From Acidobacteriota bacterium (GTDB lineage: Bacteria; Acidobacteriota; Terriglobia; Terriglobales; Acidobacteriaceae), in NCBI GenBank assembly GCA_021846945.1, contig JAJZVZ010000043.1, positions 1 to 32,635 of the forward strand: 32,635 nucleotides of DNA, read 5' to 3'. Below the pieces are notes generated by a model that made no database searches, was not told where the DNA came from, and saw only the letters and a program-made list of their open reading frames with translations. A program made the position numbers and the translations under genes. Shown piece by piece: positions 11,640-28,374 of this stretch; the stretch's first letter is position 1, and every line of letters starts with the position of its first letter.

Positions 11640-13400
11640 TCAGACTGCGGGCCGGATCTCGTACTCCAGCTTTCCAGCGGATTCCAATTTCACCACCGAA
11701 AAGGTCTTGCCGGGAACCGGGGAGTTGGCCCGCGTTTGCACGGCGGTTTGCGCGGCGGATGACACGCAGGCGGGATCAAATACCGGAATGTGTTCGACGA
11801 TCTCGCCGGGCCGTTCGACACTGACACGAATGCGATCCTCAGCGAAGACGACCTTTTTCTGCCCGCCGCCTGGCAGTGGATACCGAACCGCCGCGCCGTC
11901 ATCGAGGTATTCCGCCTCGAAGGGTGAGGCTTCCGCAGGCAGCGCTCCACCGGTCGATGTTCCCCATGCCGTCTCTCTGCCCTGCGTCTGCGACTGCAGC
12001 AGCACGCCTTTTGCCGGGGTCCACACAAATGTAAGGCCAAAGCGCTCCTGTTCCGAGGCGGCCTTTGCCGTGGAAGCAAAGGCGGCATAGTAGCCGGGGC
12101 GGCGCACATAGGTGAAGACAAATGGCAGGCGCGTGTCCTTGCGCTGCTCCACAAAGGACTGCTCGGCCAGCGGCCGCACCAGCTTGCGCGCCTCCACGAT
12201 CTGCTCCTCGGTCGGATGCCAGTCATAGTGCGCCCGCTGCAGGAAGAGATACGGCGTGAAGGCATTGAAGTCGCCCACCGGCAAGGGATCGACTTTGGGC
12301 CATTCCTTATCGAGCTTTTCGCGAGCCGCGCGAATCTGCTCGGCGCGCAGTTCCGGCGGTGTGGCAAAGGCCCGCATGATCGTGCACCGCTCTGCCAGCG
12401 GAGTGTCCACGTAGGTGTAGACCGCGTGTTTCTGGCGCGATTCGATGCTGCGGTTGAGAACGAGGAAATGCTGGCCCGGCTCGGGCAGCGCATTGAGCGC
12501 CAGCCAGCTACCGAAACGGTTCTCCTCATCCACAAGGATGTCTGCCAGCGGAGTGTTGCGCCAATAGTGATACGCCATCTGCAGGTTCTCGTGGTGAGTA
12601 TTCAGTGTGTAGCCGAGGTCCGGGCCATCCTTCTCGTACATGTAGCCGCATGGGCTCTGCAATACTTTGGGGCTGGCCTCAAGGCGCTCGCGCAGCTGCG
12701 CAAACAGCGTGGCGTCAGGGTATGCATTCAGAAATGCCGCCCCACCCGCGAAGATGTTGGTGTACTGATTGGTGTAGGTACGGCCGTGACGGTAGAGGTC
12801 GGGATCGTACAGAACCGCATGCAGCGCCTTGCGGCAGGCATCGACGGAGCGCTGATGAATCGCGGGCGAAATCGGCGGCCCGCTTTTGAGCAGACGCAGA
12901 GCCTCCGACATGAATTTGACCGCGAACGACGTGGCGGCCAGATTCCACTGCTGCGGCCCGTACTCACTGAACTTGCCATCGGGGCTTTGCAGATTGCACC
13001 AGTAATCGAGCGCCAGTTCCAGCCGGTAGCGCAGGGCCGCATTGCCCCGGTATTGATTCCACTTCTGCGGTGCGGTGTAGAACCATGCCAGCGTCAGGAT
13101 GCTCTCCATGATGCGCGCGTTATACGGGTGAAGATTGTTGGTTCCGCGCCACACTGAGATGTCGATGAATCCGCGGTCGGGCCCATCCAGCATGACACTG
13201 TTGGCCACGCGCGCCAGATAGCTGAGAGCAAAGGGCATTTCCAGATCGGCATCGGCAAAATCGGACGGGCGAATCTTTGCGGTATCGAGCGGCGGTACGG
13301 TGACGTCGGAAGGTGCCACCGGTCCATCGGCGGCCATCAGTCGAGGAATGCGCAGGAACGGCGCGGCGGCCGCGCTCCATAGAAATTCTCTCCGATTCAT
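11640..13400 (-). CDS. Tat-exported protein of unknown function, probable alpha/alpha-toroid fold
   Basis: The 586-residue product begins MNRREFLWSAAAAPFL, a twin-arginine (Tat) signal (R3, R4), so it is probably exported folded. The N-terminal two thirds are helical and rich in W, Y and N (SVWRGTNNLHPYNARIMESI, DYWCNLQSPDGKFSEYGPQQ), the look of an alpha/alpha toroid as in polysaccharide lyases and glycosidases. The C-terminal third is beta-rich (KKVVFAEDRIRVSVERPGEI). I could not assign a family or catalytic residues. A polysaccharide-degrading role is an inference from fold and neighbours. The ATG has AAGGGA about 8 bases upstream. It meets the lipoprotein gene tail to tail, one base apart. 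Confidence 0.7.
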   Translation of the reverse strand: MNRREFLWSAAAAPFLRIPRLMAADGPVAPSDVTVPPLDTAKIRPSDFADADLEMPFALSYLARVANSVMLDGPDRGFIDISVWRGTNNLHPYNARIMESILTLAWFYTAPQKWNQYRGNAALRYRLELALDYWCNLQSPDGKFSEYGPQQWNLAATSFAVKFMSEALRLLKSGPPISPAIHQRSVDACRKALHAVLYDPDLYRHGRTYTNQYTNIFAGGAAFLNAYPDATLFAQLRERLEASPKVLQSPCGYMYEKDGPDLGYTLNTHHENLQMAYHYWRNTPLADILVDEENRFGSWLALNALPEPGQHFLVLNRSIESRQKHAVYTYVDTPLAERCTIMRAFATPPELRAEQIRAAREKLDKEWPKVDPLPVGDFNAFTPYLFLQRAHYDWHPTEEQIVEARKLVRPLAEQSFVEQRKDTRLPFVFTYVRRPGYYAAFASTAKAASEQERFGLTFVWTPAKGVLLQSQTQGRETAWGTSTGGALPAEASPFEAEYLDDGAAVRYPLPGGGQKKVVFAEDRIRVSVERPGEIVEHIPVFDPACVSSAAQTAVQTRANSPVPGKTFSVVKLESAGKLEYEIRPAV

Positions 13401-13593: not shown

Positions 13594-14898
13594 TTACCAG
13601 GTATCGACAGCCAGAATCGAAGGCGCGCCTGTTCTTCCATCGATGACCTTGAGTTTCAGGACCACCTCAATATTCCGGTTGGAAAAGTTCTTTCCCATCT
13701 GGCGGCGCAGCAGTTGCAGATAGTGGGCGCTGGTTGCGAAGTGAGCCGCGGCTTCCGTTCCATTCCGTCCCAATCCCGCGACCGCTACCACCCAGCCATC
13801 AAGGGTCGGGTCGTAGTACCTCGCCACCACGGCATAATCATCCGCGCTGGAGTAAGGGAGAGACTGGTCGCGCCGCCAACGATTCTGCGAATCCTTTCGG
13901 TCCAGAATGATTTCATCCGGCGCAGCCGAGAAGTGAAAGCGCAGCGGATCAAGCAATCGAAGGGTCCAGATGTTGTTGTAAGCGCCAACCAGAACGACGG
14001 AATGCTCGCGAAGTGTGGTTAATGGCGTGGCGGGAGAAAACACCAGCCGAATTGCTGCCCCCGAGTGTTCCACAGCGTCGCTGACCTGCGAGATGGCCGA
14101 AGCAATCTGCATGGAAAGGAACGGATAGTCAGCGTCTTTGTCGGCCGTGATCACGCCCGAATAGTTGTTCTTCGCAAAAACTACGCTTCCTGTGCAGACG
14201 AGGACAGACTGCTGAGCGCGCAGGACCGGAGCCCAGAAATCGTTGACGACAGCTTGCGGCTGGACGGCGCGCGATCGCCACCACCATCCCGCGGCGATCC
14301 CCGCCAGCACGAGCAAAGCAGCCAACAAGAGCAAGAAGACGCGCCAGCGATTGGCCCACCATCCTGCCAGCGGCGCACCCCGCTCCTGAACGGTCGCTCC
14401 ATTTGCCGGATCCAGGGGCGCAGTATGGCCCCATTCCTGCGCTTCGTGCTCTCCGCGAACATTTGCCCCCGCATCGCGCCTGACGCGCATCGCCTCGCCG
14501 CTCTCCATCGCATTCTGTGCGCTGTGCGGGTGGGTGAATTCCGGAACATAGGAGCCGGGCGGCAGAGAGATTTGAATTCTGGAACTCCGGCCATGTCCGG
14601 AGTAGTAAAGCAGGAGCCGTTTGCGCACTTCGCCCGCGGTGTAACGCACCACTGTGTCCGAATTGGTGTCATAGGTCGGAGAACGGCCGAAAACTTCAAT
14701 GCCTAGCGTGCGCTCTTTCAGCAACTCCGCTCGGCCCGCCAGCGTGTTCTCAACGATGTATTCGAGCAGCGCCGGGTAACGCTTACTGTTACAGAAGTGC
14801 GAGCTGGCAAGAATCGCGCGCAGTTCGCACAGGATCTCCTCCCGGTCCTCGCGAGACGCCAAGTGCCATGTTTCGGAGCGCTCATGGTCAATTTTCAT
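13594..14898 (-). CDS. Membrane-anchored putative regulator divergent from a TonB-dependent receptor
   Basis: The 434-residue product has three parts. Residues about 20-121 form a conserved cytoplasmic-looking domain (EILCELRAILASSHFCNSKR, LLKERTLGIEVFGRSPTYDT, VVRYTAGEVRKRLLLYY, ISLPPGSYVPEF), a type I know from acidobacterial and some proteobacterial proteins and which ends like the hairpin of a winged helix. A polar linker follows, then one transmembrane helix (about 186-207). The rest is periplasmic, with VVLVGAYNNIWTLRLLDPLR, DYAVVARYYDPTLDGWVVAV and AGLGRNGTEAAAHF. The layout recalls one-component ToxR-like sensors, but DNA binding is not shown. Its start lies 384 bases from the divergent receptor start, which suggests it controls that gene. 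No strong ribosome-binding site was seen. Confidence 0.7.
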   Translation of the reverse strand: MKIDHERSETWHLASREDREEILCELRAILASSHFCNSKRYPALLEYIVENTLAGRAELLKERTLGIEVFGRSPTYDTNSDTVVRYTAGEVRKRLLLYYSGHGRSSRIQISLPPGSYVPEFTHPHSAQNAMESGEAMRVRRDAGANVRGEHEAQEWGHTAPLDPANGATVQERGAPLAGWWANRWRVFLLLLAALLVLAGIAAGWWWRSRAVQPQAVVNDFWAPVLRAQQSVLVCTGSVVFAKNNYSGVITADKDADYPFLSMQIASAISQVSDAVEHSGAAIRLVFSPATPLTTLREHSVVLVGAYNNIWTLRLLDPLRFHFSAAPDEIILDRKDSQNRWRRDQSLPYSSADDYAVVARYYDPTLDGWVVAVAGLGRNGTEAAAHFATSAHYLQLLRRQMGKNFSNRNIEVVLKLKVIDGRTGAPSILAVDTW

Positions 14899-14965
14899 GG
14901 CAGATGGTCATGATACTCGCATTTCACGGTGAAGGCAAAGAACGTTTAACACCGGCCAGACCGAA

Positions 14966-14993
14966 TTTACAACTTGATAATTATGAATAATAT
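14966..14993 (+). promoter_or_regulatory. Candidate promoter of the large TonB-dependent receptor
   Basis: TTTACA (14966-14971) and TAATAT (14988-14993) are 16 bases apart in an AT-rich patch that stands out from the GC-rich surroundings. Transcription would start near 15000 and leave a leader of about 280 bases before the receptor ATG. The remaining 14899-15282 stretch holds no gene that I can support. Confidence 0.5.
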
Positions 14994-15282
14994 ACACTAC
15001 CCACCACGTTTCAAACGGTGAGACACTTGCCAGCCGCGTGTTCGCCATTGATAAAGATACGCAGCATTCAATGAGAACTCTGCCTGTTGCGCTGGCTCAT
15101 GCAGCGCTGTGGTGCCACTACAGCGCCTTCAGCGAACATCTGCCCATTGCCGGCAGGGAGATTCCTGACACATCGATCACCTTTTTCCTTTACCGAAGGG
15201 TTTCAGGCTCTCTTCGCGAGCCGATCCCACATTCGAACGACCAACCGGCAGTCCAAAAAAATCATTTGGAGGAAGCTTTTAG

Positions 15283-18200
15283 ATGAACAACTTAGCCAGA
15301 TGTCTGACGCGCATCTTCCTCAGGGGAAATGTGGCCATTCTTGCCCTGGCCACGGCAGTGGGCATGGCGATGTACTGCTCCAGCGCATGGGCGCAGAGCG
15401 GCGCGGGCTCGATACAGGGCACAGTGACGGATGCCACCGGAGCCGTTATTCCAGAGGCCAGGATTCACGTGGTCAATCAGGCCACTTCAGTAACCACAGA
15501 CACCACGTCCAACGGCGTGGGCTTCTACCAGGTGCCGGGATTGTTCACAGGCAACTACACCGTGACATATTCGGCGCCCAATATGAAGACCTATGTAAGG
15601 AATATCCAGCTCCTGGTGGCCCAGAACGCGGTCATCAACCCGGTAATGACCGCCGGACAAATCACGCAGCAGATCGAAGTGACAGCGGACGTGGTGCAGC
15701 TGACCACCAGCGACAACGGAACGATCTCTTCCACTCTCGAGAATAGCCGGATCAACCAACTCCCCATGAACGGGCGCAATATTCTGCAGTTGGTCGGCGA
15801 AACCACGCCGGGACTCGAGAGCTGTAACCAGGACAGCTTCGGCGCCTGCGCTAACGGATTGATGGGCTCGGCGACGGAGTATGTGGCCGATGGCGTGACC
15901 CTGACCAACCGCGAATTTGGAGGCTCGCACTCGGGGCAGATTCAATTTCCCGATCCGGATTCGATTCAGGAAGTCCGCGTGGAAACGACCGGCTTGAGCG
16001 CGCAATATTCAACACCGGCCGCGGGCGTGATCACCACCAAGTCGGGAACCAACAGCGTGCACGGCACCATGTTTGAGACGGCGCGCAACAGCTACTGGGG
16101 CATCGCCAAGACCCGGCAAAATCCCGCCAACTATACCTCGCCGCCCTACATCCGCAACGAATTCGGAGCTTCGGCCGGTGGCCCCATCGTTATTCCTCAC
16201 CTCTATCATGGGAAGGACAAGAGCTTCTGGTTTGTCGCTTTTGAGCGTTACTCTTTGGCGAGTATCGGCTTTGAGACGGCTCACGTGCCTACAGTAGCCA
16301 TGCGAACCGGCGACTTCAGCCAGTTGACGAATAGCTCGGGCGTTCTTCAGAAGCTTTACGACCCCGCCACCACGCAGTCGTCGGCGAATAACTGGGCACG
16401 CACCGCGTTCAACGGCAATATAATCCCGGCTGGCCGCATCTCGCCGACGTCAAAGATCATCTTCGACATCACGCCCCTGCCGACAACGGACGCCAATCCG
16501 ATGGTTACGACCAATCTGGACGCGGTTAACCCGAATGAAACGCGCGCTCCGAGCATCACTTTCCGGCTCGACCATGTCTTCAATGAAAACAACCGCGCAT
16601 ATCTGCGCTATACGGGGAGCCCTCAAACGCAGACAGTGCTGCGCAACCAGCCGTCCAATCAACCGGCGTCCATAGCGGCCGACGGATTTCCTTTTGCCGC
16701 CAGTGGCGAGACCTATTACCAGTTGGCAATGTTCAACACTTCGCTGGGCTATACGCACGTATTTTCGCCAACCTTCTTTTCAGAGACAGTTGTGAGCCAG
16801 CAGTGGTGGGGTGAACAAAACCAGGCAGGCGGCACGCCGCTGGTTAACTTCGAGCAAAAACTGGGATTGCCCAACAACTTCGGGGAGCCCGGCTTTCCCT
16901 ATTTCCAGAGCATCTTCTGTCCCTTCAACGGCACGCAGTGGATCTACGGTTTGACCCAGATTATCTCGACCATCGATGAAAATTTGACCAAGACCATAGG
17001 GAAAAATCAGATGGAGTTCGGCGGGCGCTTCCGGCATGAGCGCATTGGCTCGCGTCCCGACATGAGCACGGACTCGATCGGCTTCGGCTCCTACGCCACC
17101 GCTCTCCTTAACCCGTCCACGATTGCCACCAATGCCTATTCCGCCACTGCGAATACAGGCAACGCCAACGCCGATATGTTTCTTGGCGGCGCCTCAAGCT
17201 ACAGCGTGAACCTGCAGCCGCCCTATCAGCACATGCACGATATGGAGTTTGATCTCTATTTCCAGGACAACTACCATATCACCCGGAACCTGACGTTGAA
17301 TCTCGGTTTGCGCTATGAGGCGCATCCGGCTCCGTGGATGAAATACGGCATGATGATGAGTTTCGATCTGAAGAACGACGCGATTGTGCTGGCCACGACC
17401 CCGCAAAACCTGATTGCTGAAGGGTTCACCACACAAGCGATTATCGACAACCTCAAGAACGACGGAGCAAAGATCGAGACCTCACAGCAGGCAGGGATGC
17501 CCGCCGGCGTGCTGGTGAATAATTACGATTTCACCTTCGGCCCCCGCGTGGGAATTGCCTGGCAGCCTTTCGGCGGAAAGTACGGCACGGTCGTGCGCGG
17601 CGCATACGGACGGTATATCTATCCGACTCCGATGCGCAGCACCTACGTTGGCATCAACAAGAACGTTCCGTTCAAGGCCGGCTATTCAAGGAGCTACACG
17701 TCGGCTTCGCAGTCGCCGGACGGCTTGCCGAACTACCTGATGCGCGCGCCGCAGACGGCGACCGGGCCAGTGACTGAAGGCACGCCGATCATGGGCATTA
17801 ACTCCGCCAACGTGGTGGATAGCACGACCGTCAACTCCATTCTGCCGGGGATGAGCATCAACAGCCTCAATCCCAAATACCCGCCGAATTACGTAACGCA
17901 GACCAACCTCACAGTCGAACAGCCGCTGAAGGGAAATTCAGCGCTGCGGATAAGCTGGCTCTATACGCATGGACAGAACCTGGATCAGGCATTCGAGTAC
18001 AACTACCATCCGTCAAGTTACGTTTGGGAGATGAAGACCGGCATCACTGCGCCCAATGGCGGAGTCTCGACGATTGGAACCAATCAGTACTCCAGCACTG
18101 CGACCGGCCCGTACGACAACGTCACCTGGGGCAGTGGAAGCTACATGGAACAGAAGAGCGGCTGGTCAAACAATAACGCGCTGCAGGTGAATTACCAGCG

Positions 18201-19173
18201 GCTCTTCCATCATGGAAGTGCCTATCAGATCAGCTACGTGTGGTCCAAGCCCTTCCGTGTGGGTGGAAACTGGAACCGCGACAACCTGATCTATCCCAGC
18301 GCGGACTTTGCCAACTCCGGCATTTCCGTGATGACGCCATCTTATGGAACGGTGTATACCCCCGATCTGGGTCCGGCACAGCCCTCGGGAACGGCCCCTT
18401 ACGCGTATTACCGCGCGATGAACCGCTTCCTGAATTACACCGTGGATACGGCGACCCCCAAGCACCATGTCGAGTTCAATGGCATCATCGATCTGCCGTT
18501 CGGCCGCGGCAAGCGGTTCTTTGGCAACGCGAACCGGTTCCTGAACGAACTGTTGGGCGGCTTCCAGATTGCCGGCGATGGGCACGTTGTCTCCGAGGAC
18601 TTCACCGTCACCAATACGAACTGGGGGCCGACCAACCCGCTCCATGTTTACAAGCACGGAGCCCGTGTCACCGATTGCCGCAGCGGCGTGTGCTACCAGA
18701 ACTTCGAGTGGTTCAACGGCTACGTTGCACCCACGGCGATCGCCGGCAACGCATGCGCCGGATCTTCAACCAAGGTAGTCACCGGCCTTCCTTCCGGATG
18801 GGCCCCCTACCAGAGTCCGATTGACACGACCTGCACTGCGACATCGACCGACAAATATTACGGGCAGAACCCGGTGAATATCACTCTCGCAAACGGGAAG
18901 ACGGGTGAGATCGGCTTCGATCCCGGTCCGGCAGGCACAAACCCCTACTCGCACACCGTGCTGAACGGGCCGTTCAACTGGACCGCTGACGCCTCTCTCT
19001 TCAAGGTCTTTCCGATCAAGGAGACGGTCAACCTGCGATTCAATATGGACGTTTTCAACGCGTTCAATGTGCAGGGCTACAACAATCCGAGCGGCACGGA
19101 CGGCGTGGAAACCATGCTCTCGTCACACAACACGCCGCGCCAGGTGCAGTTCACGCTGCGCCTCTCGTTCTAA
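15283..19173 (+). CDS. TonB-dependent receptor, Oar-like, complete
   Basis: The 1296-residue outer-membrane receptor imports an unknown ligand using TonB energy. A signal peptide (about 1-38, ending SSAWAQS) is followed by a carboxypeptidase-regulatory-like domain (about 40-125, GSIQGTVTDATGAVIPEARI), a plug domain with QLPMNGRNILQLVGETTPGL and GVITTKSGTNSVHGTMFE, and a long beta-barrel with many aromatic strands. It ends in RQVQFTLRLSF, the C-terminal aromatic typical of outer-membrane barrels. Length and order match the acidobacterial Oar-like group. GGAGG lies 10 bases before the ATG. It is divergent from the membrane regulator and ends before a strong terminator, so it is probably transcribed alone. 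No neighbouring SusD or hydrolase identifies the substrate. Confidence 0.95.
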   Translation: MNNLARCLTRIFLRGNVAILALATAVGMAMYCSSAWAQSGAGSIQGTVTDATGAVIPEARIHVVNQATSVTTDTTSNGVGFYQVPGLFTGNYTVTYSAPNMKTYVRNIQLLVAQNAVINPVMTAGQITQQIEVTADVVQLTTSDNGTISSTLENSRINQLPMNGRNILQLVGETTPGLESCNQDSFGACANGLMGSATEYVADGVTLTNREFGGSHSGQIQFPDPDSIQEVRVETTGLSAQYSTPAAGVITTKSGTNSVHGTMFETARNSYWGIAKTRQNPANYTSPPYIRNEFGASAGGPIVIPHLYHGKDKSFWFVAFERYSLASIGFETAHVPTVAMRTGDFSQLTNSSGVLQKLYDPATTQSSANNWARTAFNGNIIPAGRISPTSKIIFDITPLPTTDANPMVTTNLDAVNPNETRAPSITFRLDHVFNENNRAYLRYTGSPQTQTVLRNQPSNQPASIAADGFPFAASGETYYQLAMFNTSLGYTHVFSPTFFSETVVSQQWWGEQNQAGGTPLVNFEQKLGLPNNFGEPGFPYFQSIFCPFNGTQWIYGLTQIISTIDENLTKTIGKNQMEFGGRFRHERIGSRPDMSTDSIGFGSYATALLNPSTIATNAYSATANTGNANADMFLGGASSYSVNLQPPYQHMHDMEFDLYFQDNYHITRNLTLNLGLRYEAHPAPWMKYGMMMSFDLKNDAIVLATTPQNLIAEGFTTQAIIDNLKNDGAKIETSQQAGMPAGVLVNNYDFTFGPRVGIAWQPFGGKYGTVVRGAYGRYIYPTPMRSTYVGINKNVPFKAGYSRSYTSASQSPDGLPNYLMRAPQTATGPVTEGTPIMGINSANVVDSTTVNSILPGMSINSLNPKYPPNYVTQTNLTVEQPLKGNSALRISWLYTHGQNLDQAFEYNYHPSSYVWEMKTGITAPNGGVSTIGTNQYSSTATGPYDNVTWGSGSYMEQKSGWSNNNALQVNYQRLFHHGSAYQISYVWSKPFRVGGNWNRDNLIYPSADFANSGISVMTPSYGTVYTPDLGPAQPSGTAPYAYYRAMNRFLNYTVDTATPKHHVEFNGIIDLPFGRGKRFFGNANRFLNELLGGFQIAGDGHVVSEDFTVTNTNWGPTNPLHVYKHGARVTDCRSGVCYQNFEWFNGYVAPTAIAGNACAGSSTKVVTGLPSGWAPYQSPIDTTCTATSTDKYYGQNPVNITLANGKTGEIGFDPGPAGTNPYSHTVLNGPFNWTADASLFKVFPIKETVNLRFNMDVFNAFNVQGYNNPSGTDGVETMLSSHNTPRQVQFTLRLSF

Positions 19174-22242: not shown

Positions 22243-23523
22243 ATGAATGCCAAGATCGAGGATCATCTGCAAACAGAGATCGCTCTGCGATTTCGCGGTG
22301 TACGGCGGCGTACGCTGTCTCTCTGCGAGCCACTCTCGGCTGAGGACATGATGGTGCAGTCCTGCCCGGAGGCCTCGCCGGTCAAGTGGCATCTGGCGCA
22401 CACCACATGGTTCTTCGAGTCCTTTGTGCTCAGGGAGTTCCTGCCCGGCTACCGGCTCTTCCATCCGGATTTTTCCTGGCTTTTTAACAGCTACTACCAG
22501 AGCTTTTCTGCTTTTCCTGAAAAACGGCTGCGGTCGTCGTTTTCGCGCCCCGGACTGGATGAGATTTTGCGTTACCGGGAACATGTGGACGAGGCGATCG
22601 AAGAGTTGCTGGGTCAAAGCCCTGCGCCGGAGGCACTCCACCGCCTGGAACTGGGCGTAAACCACGAGGAACAGCACCAGGAGTTGCTGCTGACTGATGT
22701 TCTGCACGCGTTCTTCACCAATCCACTGCGTCCCGCGTATCAACCGGGAGAGGTGGAAATGGGCGCAGAGAGTGAAGCGCTGAGCTTTCTGGAGTTTGAG
22801 GGCGGGTTGCACGAGATCGGGCATGCGGGCAAGGGTTTCTGTTTCGATAATGAGCTGCCCCGGCATCGCGTCTGGCTGGAGCCGTTTGCGTTCGCGGGAC
22901 GCCTGGTCACATGTGGCGAGTTCGCATCGTTCATGGCCGATGACGGGTATAGCCGTCCGGAGCTTTGGCTTTCGGCAGGGTGGGACGCGGTGAAGAGTAA
23001 CGGCTGGCAGGCGCCACTCTACTGGACGCGACGAGACGGAAATTGGAACCTGTTTACGCTGCGCGGCGAGCTGTCCCTGGACAAGCTGAAAGCCGCTCCG
23101 GTGAGTCATGTCAGCTACTTCGAGGCTGACGCCTATGCGCGTTGGGCGGGGAAGAGGCTGGCCACCGAGTTTGAATGGGAGTTTGCGGCTGAAGACGCGG
23201 ACGAGATAGAAGCGGCGGACGGGAATTTGCTGGAGACGGGGCGGCTGATGCCCTGGCCCTCCACCGAACTGGCAGAAAATCAGGGCGGAGCGCAGTTTTT
23301 TGGCGATTGCTGGGAGTGGACGGCAAGCGCCTACCTGGGCTATCCGGGCTTCAAGCCGCTGGCCGGGTCGCTGGGCGAGTACAACGGCAAGTTCATGAGC
23401 GGGCAAATGGTGCTGCGCGGCGGCTCGTGCGTTACGCCAGGCGACCATATTCGCGCCAGCTACCGAAATTTCTTTGCGCCGGAGACACGCTGGCAATTTT
23501 CCGGCATAAGGCTTGCATCGTGA
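22243..23523 (+). CDS. egtB: Ergothioneine biosynthesis sulfoxide synthase EgtB
   Basis: The 426-residue non-haem iron enzyme joins trimethylhistidine (hercynine) to gamma-glutamylcysteine or cysteine as a sulfoxide, using oxygen. The N-terminal DinB-like domain supplies the iron ligands in WHLAHTTWFFE (around residues 50-53) and NHEEQHQELL (H-x3-H, near residues 141-145). The C-terminal formylglycine-generating-enzyme/sulfatase-modifying-like domain shows FDNELPRHRVWLEPF, PVSHVSYFEADAYARWAGKR and LRGGSCVTPGDHIRASYRNF. The length is typical. The ATG at 22243 has GGAAGG before it. EgtD follows 27 bases later, so the two form an operon. Confidence 0.93.
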   Translation: MNAKIEDHLQTEIALRFRGVRRRTLSLCEPLSAEDMMVQSCPEASPVKWHLAHTTWFFESFVLREFLPGYRLFHPDFSWLFNSYYQSFSAFPEKRLRSSFSRPGLDEILRYREHVDEAIEELLGQSPAPEALHRLELGVNHEEQHQELLLTDVLHAFFTNPLRPAYQPGEVEMGAESEALSFLEFEGGLHEIGHAGKGFCFDNELPRHRVWLEPFAFAGRLVTCGEFASFMADDGYSRPELWLSAGWDAVKSNGWQAPLYWTRRDGNWNLFTLRGELSLDKLKAAPVSHVSYFEADAYARWAGKRLATEFEWEFAAEDADEIEAADGNLLETGRLMPWPSTELAENQGGAQFFGDCWEWTASAYLGYPGFKPLAGSLGEYNGKFMSGQMVLRGGSCVTPGDHIRASYRNFFAPETRWQFSGIRLAS

Positions 23524-23550
23524 GAAAGTGAAGCGCATCGAACGAAGAAC

Positions 23551-24555
23551 ATGAGTCCTTATGCTTCCCCGTCTGTCGGCGTACGACTCGATGAAGGTAT
23601 CGCTTCTGCAGTGCGTATGGGACTTACGTCCGCTCCCAAATGGTTACCCCCGTGGCTGTTTTACGATGCGGCTGGCTCGCGGCTTTTTGAAGCAATCACC
23701 GAACTGCCGGAATACTATTTGACGCGCACCGAGCGGAGCATTCTGGCCGCACATGCGCCGGAGATGATTGCGCCGGCTCCGGCCCATACCGCAAACCATT
23801 TGAAATTGCGCATCACCGAGTTGGGCGCAGGTTCCGCGGATAAGACGCGGCTTCTGCTGCGGGCCGCGGTGGAGCGGCAGGGCACGGTGCGTTACGAACC
23901 GCTCGACGTCTCAGCCAGCGCGCTGCGAGCGGCCCGCGAGCGCATCGAGCGCGAGTTCCCCGCGGTGAGCGTGGCGCCGCAGGTTGTGGATTACACGCGC
24001 GGGAACGGAAGCGGACTCGGACTGGAGCCCGTAGAGAGCGGCGAACGGCGGCTGGTGCTTTACATCGGATCGAGCATCGGCAACTTCGAGCATGAGGATG
24101 CAATGCGGCTTTTACGCCGGGTGCGGGAGGCACTGCGACCTGGCGACGGTCTGCTGCTGGGCGTGGACCTCGTGAAAGAAGAACACACGCTGCTGGCAGC
24201 CTACAACGATGCGGCCGGCGTAACGGCAGCCTTCAACAGGAACATGCTGGAGCGTCTCAACCACGAATTGGGCGCCAACTTTGATGTTGATAACTTCGCG
24301 CACCGGGCCGTCTGGAATCGTGGCGCGTCGCGGATTGAGATGCACCTTGAAAGCCGATATGCGCAACGCGTGCGCCTCGCCTCCTTGGATCTTGACGTGA
24401 GATTTGCGCAGGGTGAAACCATTCACACCGAAAACAGCTACAAGTACGCGCCCGGCCAGGCAGAGGCCATGCTGGTTCAAGCTGGATTCAAAGCGGAGCA
24501 GTGTTGGATGGACGAGCGCGGATGGTTTGCAGTTTGCCTCGGAGAGGTGGCATAG
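23551..24555 (+). CDS. egtD: L-histidine N-alpha-methyltransferase EgtD
   Basis: The 334-residue SAM-dependent enzyme trimethylates histidine to hercynine, the first step of ergothioneine synthesis. The family start is WLPPWLFYDAAGSRLFEAIT then ELPEYYLTRTE. The SAM-binding motif is ITELGAGSADKTR (about 88-100), with GSSIGNFEHEDAM and LLLGVDLVKE further on and a C-terminal GETIHTENSYKY. It follows egtB closely in the same operon. No egtC or egtE homologue is seen, as in many two-gene ergothioneine clusters. It converges with the GH27 gene. Confidence 0.93.
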   Translation: MSPYASPSVGVRLDEGIASAVRMGLTSAPKWLPPWLFYDAAGSRLFEAITELPEYYLTRTERSILAAHAPEMIAPAPAHTANHLKLRITELGAGSADKTRLLLRAAVERQGTVRYEPLDVSASALRAARERIEREFPAVSVAPQVVDYTRGNGSGLGLEPVESGERRLVLYIGSSIGNFEHEDAMRLLRRVREALRPGDGLLLGVDLVKEEHTLLAAYNDAAGVTAAFNRNMLERLNHELGANFDVDNFAHRAVWNRGASRIEMHLESRYAQRVRLASLDLDVRFAQGETIHTENSYKYAPGQAEAMLVQAGFKAEQCWMDERGWFAVCLGEVA

Positions 24556-24622: not shown

Positions 24623-25849
24623 TTACTTTGGCTGCGGGAGGCGAACCAGCAGAATATCGTGACTGGCAATCTCGATCGGCATGTTGCTGGTCAGGGTCAC
24701 TTCCTTACCCGTCCACAGATCTTTGCCTCTCTGCGGCCCATGCAGACCGAGTTTAGCCAGGTTCAGATGGAATGGATGGGACGAGTAGCGATTAGCACCG
24801 GCGTTGAGCACGGCCACGGCCAGTGCGCCGCCGACGAGGTGGCGTGTCCAGACATCCACTTCGCCCTCAGTGTAAATGCGGCTTCCCTCGCGGCCTAGCC
24901 GGTCCTGGTCGAGTGCGATCACGTCGCGGTTGGTCAGGACGTCTCTGACCTCAGGGGTCATGTGCGGCAGGTCGTTGCCTGCGAGCAGCGGCGCGGCCAG
25001 CATGGCCCATATTGAGAAGTGGGAGCGGTCTTCAGCCAGCGTCAGTTTGCCGTTGCCCACCTCCAGCATGTCGGGATCGTTCCAGTGCCCGGGCCCCGCG
25101 TACCTTGCCAGTCCGTCCTGCTGGCTGAGGATCGCGTAAATGCGGTCCCAGTTGGGCTGAATGTCCCGCGTGGTGCGCCACAGGTTGGCGCCGGTTGAGG
25201 GTGCCCACTCCCACGCGGCATCCCGCCCGCCCATGCTGAGGGAGTAGACCATGGGACGGCCCGTAGCCCTGAGCGCGTTGCCCATCTTGGTGAAAGCTGC
25301 TTCCATCAGGCGCATCTGCTCAGCCGGGTCGTTCGGCGCCTGTGTGCGCATCACTCCGCGAAAGCTGCACAGGTCGTACTTCAGGTAGTCGATGCCCCAG
25401 GAGGCAAAGAGCCGGACATCCTGAGCTTCGTGGCCCAGCGACCCCTCAAAGCCGGCGCATGTCTTCGGTCCGGGCGAGGAGTAGATGCCAAGTTTCAGGC
25501 CTTTGGAGTGGACGTAATCGGCCAGTGCCTTCATGTCGGGAAACTTCGAGTTGCTCTGCAATTCGCCGTTCGCGTCCCGCTCGCCCTCCCATGTGTCGTC
25601 GATATTCACGTAGACATAGCCGGCGTCTCTCATCCCGGAGGCCACCATCGCATCGGCCGCGGCGCGGATGTCCTTATCGGTGACATTGCGGCGAAAGTAG
25701 TTCCAGCTATTCCAGCCCATGGGTGGCGTTTGCGCCACCATCTGCGACCGTGGAGGTTGGGTAGCCTTGTGCGTCCGCGGAGTTTGAGATGCCGCAGTAA
25801 GAGTGGCCAGGGCAAGTACGGCGATAGCGGATGAAGCAACGAGACGCAT
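24623..25849 (-). CDS. GH27 family alpha-galactosidase paralogue with altered pocket
   Basis: The 408-residue exported glycosidase cleaves, or once cleaved, terminal alpha-galactose. A signal peptide (about 1-21) leads to the TIM barrel starting TPPMGWNSWNYF. The catalytic nucleophile is D159 in YLKYDLC and the acid/base is D229 in WRTTRDI. NIDDTWEG, GLKLGIYSSPG and HWNDPDMLEVGN are also family marks. A small C-terminal beta domain follows. Compared with the tandem copy, the segment CQYGWD reads SMGGRD (205-210), and TTGDI reads TTRDI. That removes a cysteine expected to pair with the one after the nucleophile and an aromatic residue near the substrate. The ATG at 25849 was chosen because it starts the signal peptide and has GAGGG about 9 bases upstream. 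An upstream open extension looks spurious. Confidence 0.9.
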   Translation of the reverse strand: MRLVASSAIAVLALATLTAASQTPRTHKATQPPRSQMVAQTPPMGWNSWNYFRRNVTDKDIRAAADAMVASGMRDAGYVYVNIDDTWEGERDANGELQSNSKFPDMKALADYVHSKGLKLGIYSSPGPKTCAGFEGSLGHEAQDVRLFASWGIDYLKYDLCSFRGVMRTQAPNDPAEQMRLMEAAFTKMGNALRATGRPMVYSLSMGGRDAAWEWAPSTGANLWRTTRDIQPNWDRIYAILSQQDGLARYAGPGHWNDPDMLEVGNGKLTLAEDRSHFSIWAMLAAPLLAGNDLPHMTPEVRDVLTNRDVIALDQDRLGREGSRIYTEGEVDVWTRHLVGGALAVAVLNAGANRYSSHPFHLNLAKLGLHGPQRGKDLWTGKEVTLTSNMPIEIASHDILLVRLPQPK

Positions 25850-25894
25850 GAGTGAAACCCTCGCTGGAGAGCTATAGGGGAAATAGTATGCCGC
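25850..25894 (-). promoter_or_regulatory. Upstream box shared by the two GH27 genes (copy 1)
   Basis: The minus strand reads GCGGCATACTATTTCCCC beginning 45 bases before the start codon. The other GH27 gene has GCAGCATAGTATTCCTCT at 46 bases. The box probably marks a conserved -10 or operator region kept after duplication. Confidence 0.35.
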
Positions 25895-25990
25895 AGAAGA
25901 AGAATCGGTCGAGGTCCGTGATCCCCCATCCCGGCCGCACAAGCAAAGGCGCGGCAAGGATGGAGCATCCGGAGAAATGAGGGTTGAAGA

Positions 25991-27202
25991 TTACTTCGGC
26001 TGCGGGATGCGGACCAGCAGAATATCGTGGCTGGCAATCTCGATGGGCATATGGTCACTCAGCGTAACCTCTTTGCCCGTCCACAGGTCCTTGCCATTCT
26101 GCGGACCATGCAGGCCGAGCCTGGCCAGGTCCAGATGGAAGGGGTGTGTCGAGTAGCGGTCGGAGCCGGCATTGACGATGGCTACCGCCATAGCACCGCC
26201 GGAGAGATGGCGGGTCCAGATATCCACTTCACCCTCCGAGTAGATTCGCGTGCCCTCACGGCCCAGCCGGTCCTGGTCAATAGCAATCACGTCGCGGTTG
26301 GTCAGGATGTCGCGGACCTCGGGGGTCATGTGCGGCAGGTCGTTGCCTGCGAGCAGCGGCGCGGCCAGCATGGCCCACATGGAAAAGTGCGTGCGGTTCT
26401 CCGCCAGCGTGAGCTTGCCGTTGCCGACTTCGAGCATATCCGGATCATTCCAGTGGCCGGGACCTGCATATTTGGCCAGGCCGGCCTGCTCATTCATGAG
26501 CGAGTAGATACTTTGCCACTCGGGCCGGATGTCGCCTGTCGTCCGCCACAGGTTGCCGCCCACTGAGGGCGCCCACTCCCATACCGCGTCCCATCCGTAC
26601 TGGCAGAGCGAATACACGATGGGGCGTCCGGTTGCCCTCAGCGCCTTGCCCATTTTGTCGTAGGCGGCCACCATCAGGCGCATCTGCTCGGCCTTGTCAT
26701 TCGGCGCCTGCGCCGCCATCACGTCCTTGCGGAAGCTGCAGAGGTCGTACTTCAGGTAGTCGATGCCCCAGGAAGCATAGAGCTGCGCATCCTGAGATTC
26801 GTGGTCGAGTGAAGCCGGAAAGCCGGCACAGGTCCTCGATCCCGGCCCCGAATAGATGCCGAGCTTCAGGCCCTTGGAGTGAACGTAGTCTGCCAGCGCC
26901 TTCATGTCGGGAAACTTCGAGTTGGTGTGCAGCACGCCATTGGCATCGCGCTCGCCTTCCCATGTGTCGTCGATGTTGACGTAGATGTAGCCGGCATCTC
27001 GCATGCCCGAAGACACCAGAGCATCGGCGGCGTTGCGCACATCCTGGTCGGTCACGTTCCGGTGGAAATAGTTCCAGCTATTCCAGCCCATCGGCGGCGT
27101 CTGGGCCACTTTCGTCGAGGATGCGCTGGAGGATGACTGGGCTGCGGTAGCCATCGAGGCCAGGGCAAGTGCGGCAAGGCAGAGCGAAGCGGAAATGCGC
27201 AT
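25991..27202 (-). CDS. GH27 family alpha-galactosidase
   Basis: The 403-residue exported enzyme removes terminal alpha-linked galactose from glycans. A signal peptide (about 1-21, ending ATAAQ) is followed by a GH27 TIM barrel starting TPPMGWNSWNYF. The nucleophile is D153 in YLKYDLC and the acid/base D224 in WRTTGDI. The expected CQYGWD block (C200, Y202, W204) is intact, as are NIDDTWEGE and HWNDPDMLEV. A C-terminal beta domain includes GKDLWTGKEVTL and ends near PIEIASHDILLVRIPQPK. It is the likely active member of a tandem pair, 141 bases upstream of copy 1 on the same strand, and divergent from the GH43 gene. Confidence 0.93.
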   Translation of the reverse strand: MRISASLCLAALALASMATAAQSSSSASSTKVAQTPPMGWNSWNYFHRNVTDQDVRNAADALVSSGMRDAGYIYVNIDDTWEGERDANGVLHTNSKFPDMKALADYVHSKGLKLGIYSGPGSRTCAGFPASLDHESQDAQLYASWGIDYLKYDLCSFRKDVMAAQAPNDKAEQMRLMVAAYDKMGKALRATGRPIVYSLCQYGWDAVWEWAPSVGGNLWRTTGDIRPEWQSIYSLMNEQAGLAKYAGPGHWNDPDMLEVGNGKLTLAENRTHFSMWAMLAAPLLAGNDLPHMTPEVRDILTNRDVIAIDQDRLGREGTRIYSEGEVDIWTRHLSGGAMAVAIVNAGSDRYSTHPFHLDLARLGLHGPQNGKDLWTGKEVTLSDHMPIEIASHDILLVRIPQPK

Positions 27203-27384: not shown

Positions 27385-28374
27385 ATGAAGAAACTTGCTT
27401 TTTGGGTGGCAGGACTTCTTGTGCTGCCGATGACGGCGGCGACCTTGCATGCGGCAACGGGAACCATCAAGCCCGGAGCGCCGTGGTTCGATACCAGCGG
27501 CCGGCGCATCCAGGCGCACGGCGGCGGCATGACGGTGTGGAAGCATACCTACTACTGGTTTGGCGAAGACCGCTCGCAGACCAACGATCCCGCCAAACGC
27601 TACGTTGCCTGCTACTCATCGAAGGATCTGGTGCACTGGAAGTTCCGCGGCCAGGCGCTGGCGCTCGCCGATCCTGAAAACCTGGGGCCGCACTGGGTAC
27701 TGGAGCGGCCGAAGGTGTATGTAAACCCGCGCACGCACAAGTTTGTGATGTATGCGCACCTGGACAATGCGCATTACCGGTTGGCCCGGGTGATGGTCGC
27801 GGTGAGCGACCACATCAACGGGCCGTACAAGTATGTGAAGAGCTTCAGGCCGCTCAACGAGGAGAGCCGCGACATCGGGCAGTTTGTGGATGACGACGGG
27901 GCGGCGTACCTGATCTTCGAGTCGCGGCCGACGCGAGGATTCTTCATCGCGAAGCTGACGGACGACTATATGAACGTGGAAAAGACCGCCTTCATTCACG
28001 CGCCGCTGGAAGGCGGAGCGCTGGTGCACTACGACGGGCTCTACTACGTGGTAGGGTCGCACATGACCGGCTGGCGGCCCAACCCGGACGTGTATGCAAC
28101 GGCCCCCGCCATCACCGGCCCGTGGACGGAGTTCAGGAACATCGCGCCGCCGGAGGCGAATACCTACAACGCGCAATCGACCATGCTTTTTGCGGTGAAG
28201 GGTTCGAAGAAGACCGCGGTCATCTTCATGGGAGACATCTGGGAGCCGCGCACGCTGTGGGATTCGCGCTACCTGTGGATGCCGCTGGAGATGGGGAACG
28301 GCACGATGCATCTGCCCCCGCCGCAGCCCTGGACGATCAACGTGAAGACGGGCGAGACTGCGCTCAAGCAATGA
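27385..28374 (+). CDS. GH43 family glycosidase, exo-beta-1,3-galactanase-like (GH43_24)
   Basis: The 329-residue exported enzyme has a signal peptide (about 1-24) and a five-bladed propeller domain. RIQAHGGGMTVWKHTYYWFG near the start is typical of exo-beta-1,3-galactanases, which release galactose from arabinogalactan main chains. Candidate catalytic residues are E107 in VLERPK, E209 in LEGGALVHYDG (acid) and Q264 in YNAQSTM. In the fungal enzyme Pc1,3Gal43A a glutamine in this position is thought to replace the usual aspartate base. No carbohydrate-binding module is attached. AAGGGGA lies before the ATG. It is divergent from two GH27 genes, which suits combined attack on galactose-rich plant polymers. 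Confidence 0.85.
   Translation: MKKLAFWVAGLLVLPMTAATLHAATGTIKPGAPWFDTSGRRIQAHGGGMTVWKHTYYWFGEDRSQTNDPAKRYVACYSSKDLVHWKFRGQALALADPENLGPHWVLERPKVYVNPRTHKFVMYAHLDNAHYRLARVMVAVSDHINGPYKYVKSFRPLNEESRDIGQFVDDDGAAYLIFESRPTRGFFIAKLTDDYMNVEKTAFIHAPLEGGALVHYDGLYYVVGSHMTGWRPNPDVYATAPAITGPWTEFRNIAPPEANTYNAQSTMLFAVKGSKKTAVIFMGDIWEPRTLWDSRYLWMPLEMGNGTMHLPPPQPWTINVKTGETALKQ

Follow-up and report, generated by a model that had tools for sequence, protein, structure and literature searches.

Which protein controls the gene for the Oar-like TonB-dependent receptor (TBDR) that lies in a 32,635-nucleotide stretch of DNA from an Acidobacteriota bacterium (contig JAJZVZ010000043.1 of assembly GCA_021846945.1, hereafter the window)? 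The receptor gene (1296 aa; 15283..19173, + strand) and the gene for a 434-aa protein, here called REG (13594..14898, - strand), point away from a 384-bp gap between them, and inspection of the open reading frames (ORFs) returned this divergent pair exactly as the first-pass annotation had given it. That annotation had taken REG to be a membrane-anchored one-component regulator of the receptor gene. Our analysis supports the transmembrane one-component reading: REG is very probably such a regulator of polysaccharide-utilisation genes, as judged from the linkage of its family to TBDR genes, from the winged helix and other folds predicted for its domains, and from a predicted operator that is conserved among its relatives.

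REG consists of an N-terminal predicted DNA-binding domain, a single transmembrane helix and a periplasmic C-terminal domain, the topology being assigned by hydropathy and charge. The N-domain (residues 16-122; 14533..14853, on the - strand like all parts of REG) was modelled by AlphaFold2 (pLDDT 83.8) as a winged helix with OmpR/PhoB neighbours; the model, based on 82 sequences, has helices at residues 16-31, 40-53, 62-68 and 83-101 and a two-strand wing. The helix at residues 83-101 (VVRYTAGEVRKRLLLYYSG; 14596..14652) is the putative recognition helix, the class of which predicts the operator. The N-domain had been called conserved, and six positions (L45, E62, V84, R85, R92 and Y117) were indeed invariant across the 82 sequences. 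The single transmembrane helix of the first-pass annotation was found again as one strong hydrophobic helix at residues 187-205 (14284..14340). Among 84 family proteins, such a helix peak was present in 80, as a single peak in 77 of those 80, and the positive-inside bias (3.34 vs 2.58 K+R) fitted an N-in topology weakly. The periplasmic sensor-like domain (residues about 214-434; 13597..14259) was modelled by AlphaFold2 with a pLDDT of 90.2. REG had no Pfam match at E<=1 and only a sub-threshold NCBIfam match, and searches of PDB sequences with REG and with profiles of its N- and C-domains gave nothing significant.

The REG family and its receptors

The genome of the window (99% complete, 339 contigs) contains 16 N-domain matches, REG included. 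Fifteen of the 16 adjoin a TBDR gene, 14 being divergent from it and one (L019) following a TBDR in the same orientation; the TBDR of L020 is cut by the contig end and is known from BLAST only. With about 65 TBDRs (an approximate total, 65 of 96 candidates being scored) and 4600 genes assumed, the probability of finding 14 of 16 divergent from a TBDR by chance is about 3e-25. As a yardstick, we took 21 other matches to helix-turn-helix families in the same genome (11 Trans_reg_C, 4 GntR and 6 MarR_2), of which one lay within 2 kb of a listed TBDR (Fisher 3e-8 vs the REG family). A transmembrane helix was recognised by hydropathy in 15 of the 16 family members of this genome. Their C-domains could be aligned in all 16, with W222 and G375 invariant, and BLAST at 1e-3 matched the REG C-domain to 7 of the 15 other paralogues. 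Four of the paralogues (L021, L022, L029, L031) have ORFs of 96-276 aa, chosen by length alone, inside the gap of the pair.

The same association was found elsewhere. In 73 named loci, which were picked by similarity to the window subgroup, a divergent TBDR was at most 2 kb from the start of the N-domain in 41. Within 1 kb, the TBDR was downstream in five others, upstream on the same strand in one and convergent in one; of the rest, eight had a TBDR farther off, two were cut by a contig end and 15 had none in the DNA examined. In a draw across the phylum, the N-domain occurred in 11 of 99 genomes, that of the window included, with up to 19 copies per genome. An unselected survey of 48 matches in the 10 other genomes gave 24 divergent from an adjacent TBDR and 6 with a TBDR next downstream on the same strand. 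The association with receptors is strong in the window's own genome, in the 73 named loci and among the 48 unselected matches. The titles of the 73 loci are acidobacterial except for L074, which has none, and L050, L066 and L072, the contigs of which are labelled Methanoregulaceae, Formivibrio and Rhodanobacteraceae, respectively; their REG-TBDR pairs resemble the acidobacterial ones, and they are perhaps mis-binned.

The predicted operator and its target genes

Reading the gaps of divergent pairs side by side brought out a common 20-mer, present with at most two mismatches in 12 of 79 gaps. In the window, comparative footprinting placed the predicted operator at 15012..15030 (- strand; GCAAGTGTCTCACCGTTTG, one mismatch to the clade consensus GCAAGTGACTCACCGTTTG); its core, GTGACTCAC, forms an inverted repeat centred on a single base. 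The information content was 1.65-1.87 bits per base in the operator vs 0.1-0.6 in the flanks (19 of 21 rows), and the operator stood 187-200 bp before the N-domain start in the 20 clade members other than that of the window. The occurrence of the site followed the recognition helix: GCAAGTGACTCACCGTTTG was found, with at most two mismatches and within 450 bp upstream (or as far as the available DNA reached), before 21 of 23 REG genes encoding a DT[VI]VR[YF] helix and before none of the 117 others. This split covers 140 REG genes; L032 was put in the clade by hand (22+1, 118-1), and L175, found via its site, was left out. The operator clade is defined by the DT[VI]VR[YF] helix together with an upstream GCAAGTGACTCACSGTTTG, and the REG of the window has both. 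Its site was the sole match with at most three mismatches in its own genome, and the pattern was absent upstream of the other paralogues there. A weakly conserved element near GTTGTGTCAAACGTT (about 0.4 bits per base) was also observed in clade loci. It lies on the REG side of the operator, about 75-90 bp 3' of it when read in the orientation of REG, and may be a second half-site or an element of the REG promoter.

In 12 genomes we found 16 operator sites with at most two mismatches, vs 0.8 expected by chance. Twelve of these were at a REG gene, two stood before a TBDR away from the REG upstream region (L087, L173), one stood before an alginate lyase gene in a TBDR cluster (L174, where the stretch examined held no REG) and one lay inside a TBDR-like ORF (L176). 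With up to three mismatches, 30 sites were seen vs about 13.5 expected by chance in 67 Mb. The facing genes were tabulated for 32 of 40 sites, one side of each being examined up to 450 bp. At 28 of these, the gene reading away from the site within 253 bp encoded a TBDR (13), a GH2 enzyme (8) or an alginate lyase (7). All but one of the 28 stood 4-253 bp before the target ORF, the remaining one overlapping it, and at sites adjoining REG, REG itself lay on the side opposite the target gene. The four other tabulated sites faced a beta-helix/GH141-like protein (L037), a contig end (L045) and an unclassified 674-aa ORF (L174), or were the L176 site. Left out of the table were L177-L184, with three mismatches each and no REG in the DNA examined (in L184, a TBDR was about 5 kb off), and five further sites with three mismatches fell outside the 40 examined.

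Further evidence on the targets came from rearranged loci. Operator copies were found before TBDRs that do not share the REG upstream region in L035, L037, L040, L087 and L173. L037, L040 and L087 are all three of the clade loci in which REG is followed within 1 kb by the start of a same-strand TBDR, and each has a second copy 27-108 bp before the TBDR ORF, oriented to the TBDR as in the divergent pairs. L035 has a GH2 gene between REG and the TBDR, with one copy between REG and GH2 and another before the TBDR. In L036, a TBDR about 13 kb from REG has the site and REG does not; L039 has only a three-mismatch site, 31 bp before a GH2 gene; and in L046, L048, L049, L051 and L052 an alginate lyase gene stands between site and TBDR. 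The predicted operator in the gap thus tracks both the regulator and its predicted targets through rearrangements. Because the predicted targets include GH2 and alginate lyase genes, they look like polysaccharide-utilisation control and not control of the receptor only. The enzymes of the clade (alginate lyase, GH2 and one GH28) give a hint of a uronic-acid or pectin-like substrate; no enzyme of the GH2, GH28 or alginate lyase type was recognised next to REG in the window.

Part of a sister clade, with a DPVVR... helix, carries a related but different site, GCAAGGCTGATACCGTATG, best seen in L050, L053, L054, L057-L059 and the own-genome paralogue L017. As its mean match was 12.65/18 vs a shuffled maximum of 11.17 (24 sister-clade members used), this site is well kept in part of the cluster only. 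The window's own genome has a single GCAAGGCTGATACCGTATG match, with three mismatches, between the REG and the TBDR of the sister-clade paralogue; because a reversed control also gave one match in this genome, the uniqueness of the match is weak evidence and its position better evidence. For the sister-clade paralogue on contig C326 of this genome, we predict GCAAGAGTGATACGGTATG, and not the window site, as the target of the N-domain. Both operators have GCAAG-N6-ACSGTNTG in common. A motif search in five small clusters gave results at or barely above shuffles for all but cluster 8, which was modestly above them (13.5/18 vs a maximum of 12.5 in 8 shuffles). In a cluster with a VRVTIAE helix (L069, L072, L074, L081, L091), a weaker motif near TGTGCAGGGTCTTTCTGG, 202-214 bp upstream, was slightly above shuffles.

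Predicted folds and mode of action

The first-pass annotation had suggested a DNA-binding N-domain, and the fold comparison agreed with this. When 226 Foldseek chains were aligned by VIA-align, the 14 best rows for the predicted winged helix were DNA-binding domains of OmpR/PhoB type (Z 7.9-6.3), among them PrrA (7.9), SaeR (7.2) and PhoB-DNA (6.7), followed by ScpB (6.2). In Pfam searches with the 82 N-domains, the lowest E (0.0045) was that of Trans_reg_C, below cut-off and in three members; an endonuclease family equalled it in number (3 of 82; E 0.17). Profile comparison with the Trans_reg_C, GntR and MarR_2 domains of the same genome ranked Trans_reg_C best, without significance.

For the C-domain, Foldseek returned 11 BcsB chains in the first 12 rows (probability 0.96-1.00, E about 1e-3), and VIA-align superposed it on BcsB residues 535-722 with a Z of 10.7 (160 residues, 3.2 A, 11% identity). 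Further similarity was seen to the N-terminal domains of enzymes of the GH67, GH115 and GH84 families (Z 8.5-10.5, the highest value being that of GH67 glucuronidases) and to the anchoring domain of an archaeal S-layer (Z 10.3). Most of these structural neighbours act on carbohydrate. Because the GH67 and S-layer matches tie with BcsB, the match is one of fold class, and not of function or proven sugar binding. The same N-domain also occurs with other C-terminal parts, namely malectin (L104, L157), a PD40 propeller (L124, L135, L146) and TPR (L103, L131, L153); of the five loci with malectin or PD40 variants, four (L104, L124, L135, L146) are divergent from a TBDR.

The gap of the window holds an AT-rich stretch with three promoter-like matches vs 0.7 expected from shuffles, in keeping with the AT-rich promoter noted earlier. 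Toward REG there are TTGAAA-16-TATTAT and TTGCCT-17-TATCAT (14910..15014, - strand; consensus matches only), and TTGAAA, a first hexamer, overlaps the predicted operator. Toward the TBDR, TTGCCA-17-GATAAA (15027..15055, + strand), which also overlaps the operator, was read by eye; it is weak because the promoter scanner did not report it. No ORF of at least 100 aa lies wholly inside the gap; a genome-wide search for sigma/anti-sigma pairs was not made.

We propose that the cytoplasmic winged helix would bind GCAAGTGACTCACSGTTTG as a dimer or in tandem, and that the periplasmic domain would sense an oligosaccharide that the neighbouring TBDR imports and that may derive from a polysaccharide of pectin-like or uronic-acid-containing type. 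Binding of this ligand would alter the DNA-binding state and most likely activate the divergent receptor gene; in relatives, GH2 and alginate lyase genes would be activated likewise. REG may also control itself, because its promoter-like -35 hexamer overlaps the operator. The paralogues would act likewise through operators of their own; elsewhere than in this genome, some would do so with malectin, PD40 propeller or TPR C-domains.

Instead of an activator, REG could be a repressor that is relieved by its ligand, a possibility that we hold to be real if clearly the lesser one: promoter-like hexamers on either side run into the operator (the receptor side being the one read by eye), and the sites lie close before, or in one case over, their target ORFs. 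The similarly built CadC, ChiS/TfoS and SusR are, on the other hand, described as activators in the reports concerned (PMC5430869, PMC11856585, PMC3878776).

It is unlikely that REG works as in the FecR/FecA system, its periplasmic domain reading the occupied receptor by contact and not the free ligand, even though REG adjoins a receptor in most loci. Sequence distances of REG and receptor, determined for 13 of 15 own-genome pairs (two with cut receptors being left out), were uncorrelated (Spearman 0.04-0.16, permutation p 0.09-0.29), which is a weak negative, while those of the REG N- and C-domains did correlate (0.52, p 0.001). The receptor of the window has the Oar-like make-up of CarboxypepD_reg (1e-16), a TonB plug below cut-off (20.7 bits vs 23.9) and an OMP_b-brl_4 barrel (6e-133), with no STN signalling domain among its Pfam matches, and some family members adjoin enzymes in loci that have no adjacent TBDR. 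Co-evolution of REG and receptor was not significant among the 13 pairs and was dropped as a candidate.

Rather improbable, too, is a separate soluble regulator that binds the site, with REG a merely co-regulated membrane protein of the same loci. Most sites are in REG-carrying loci, and binding of REG to the site is a prediction; yet the site follows the helix class of REG while the gene that faces it differs from locus to locus, TBDRs in part of the sister clade are preceded by a different site, and the N-domain is predicted to be a winged helix. Least probable of all is that the N-domain is a protein-protein module whose association with receptors has another cause, such as a role as inner-membrane energising or assembly partner: no DNA-binding family showed significant sequence similarity to it, but the operator is helix-specific, a wing and recognition helix are predicted, and malectin, propeller and TPR variants share the same N-domain.

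Several observations weigh against REG as a transmembrane regulator of these genes. Of the 55 PDB matches that Foldseek listed for the N-domain at an E of at most 10, not one was at or below 0.001; every VIA-align Z for this domain was below 8; and hhalign of the N-domain against Trans_reg_C (profile from 10 of the 11 own-genome domains) fell short of significance, with a probability of 1.5% and a score of 16.4, the reversed control scoring 14.3. The clade counts ignore shared ancestry, L043-L045 being near-identical, and two clade members, L036 and L039, have no site in the 450 bp upstream. Nor is there a site immediately in front of a TBDR in L039, L041, L045 and L056, or of the nearer TBDR in L036. 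Reversed-pattern controls gave, with at most three mismatches, one match in 12 genomes and two in 7, and in clusters 9, 13, 41 and 50 no motif was clearly above shuffles. The own-genome paralogue L023 has no adjoining TBDR, and another gene lies inside at least 6 of the 41 divergent pairs (L036, L046, L048, L049, L051, L052). Eighteen of the 48 surveyed matches had no adjoining TBDR either; the neighbour genes of eight of these 18 were scanned and encoded sulfatase, GH28, GH3 and GH2 (four cases), a GFO/IDH/MocA protein, an ECF sigma factor (at L121), a weak PHP match and a PI-PLC-C1 protein.

Neighbouring genes, known systems and meaning

REG is closely followed, on its own strand, by a gene for a 586-aa protein (11640-13400) with a Tat-like N-terminus. 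Neither Pfam nor the PDB gave a match to this protein, and comparison with two ORFs of L174 and L173 showed no significant similarity, so that it gives no clue to the substrate. A second TBDR (3-986, - strand), cut off at the contig end, shares 31% identity with the first over an alignment of 305 columns. Farther on are genes for an FGE-sulfatase/DinB_2 protein and then a histidine-specific methyltransferase (Methyltransf_33; 22243-24555, + strand), presumably an ergothioneine EgtB-EgtD pair. Two adjacent genes of alpha-galactosidase type (Melibiase_2; 24623-27202, - strand), perhaps a tandem duplication, are adjoined by a GH43-type gene (27385-28374).

CadC has the domain order winged helix, one transmembrane helix, periplasmic domain. 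REG, as predicted, shares this order with the ToxR/CadC type, and the best structural neighbours of its N-domain, at Z below 8, are of OmpR/PhoB type; it differs in that the cut-off for Trans_reg_C (PF00486) is not reached and in its predicted targets, which are TBDR and glycan genes. CadC itself is described as a transmembrane activator (PMC5430869). SusR of Bacteroides thetaiotaomicron is described as a membrane protein with its sensor in the periplasm and its DNA-binding domain in the cytoplasm, controlling a locus for TonB-dependent glycan uptake (PMC3878776). Its DNA-binding domain is C-terminal and is said there to have no similarity to other families, its own family being called unique to Bacteroidetes; the DNA motifs of that family were obtained by comparative genomics (PMC3878776). 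Like SusR, REG would be a membrane-bound sensor and regulator tied to TBDR-based glycan uptake, with which its context and predicted operator agree. By that description, REG is set apart from SusR by its N-terminal putative DNA-binding domain and by its phylum, Acidobacteriota. Because of the Trans_reg_C sequence test on one side and the domain order on the other, we file REG in neither the ToxR/CadC nor the SusR family. ChiS and TfoS of Vibrio cholerae are membrane-bound, respond to chitin and bind the tfoR promoter directly, according to PMC11856585. By description, they resemble REG as transmembrane regulators answering to a polysaccharide; they are different proteins, and their target is the tfoR promoter and not a TBDR. 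BcsB of the cellulose synthase complex, described as repeats of a carbohydrate-binding-like and a flavodoxin-like domain (PMC11379886), has a fold in common with the REG C-domain and is not a regulator.

We found no description of the REG family or its setting, and no account of the control of acidobacterial TBDRs, in the literature searched, which mostly did not extend to subscription journals. The part of PMC3174227 that deals with winged-helix and TonB-receptor paralogues in an acidobacterium does not mention the family. We lean toward the view that the family forms a phylum-level glycan-sensing system, in which a diverged winged helix and a transmembrane helix are combined with exchangeable periplasmic domains and each of the up to 19 members per genome has its own helix-coded operator (in the GCAAG-N6-ACSGTNTG frame or a derivative of it), filling a role like that of SusR/HTCS in Bacteroidota. 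Acidobacteriota are reported to be widespread and abundant in soils (PMC3174227). They can carry dozens of TBDRs, about 65 in the genome studied here. The predicted operator, its targets and the helix-to-operator rule would make the assignment of substrates to these TBDRs testable, as SusR/HTCS regulons did for gut Bacteroidota, and the REG family would offer a natural series for how a membrane-tethered winged helix shifts its DNA specificity.

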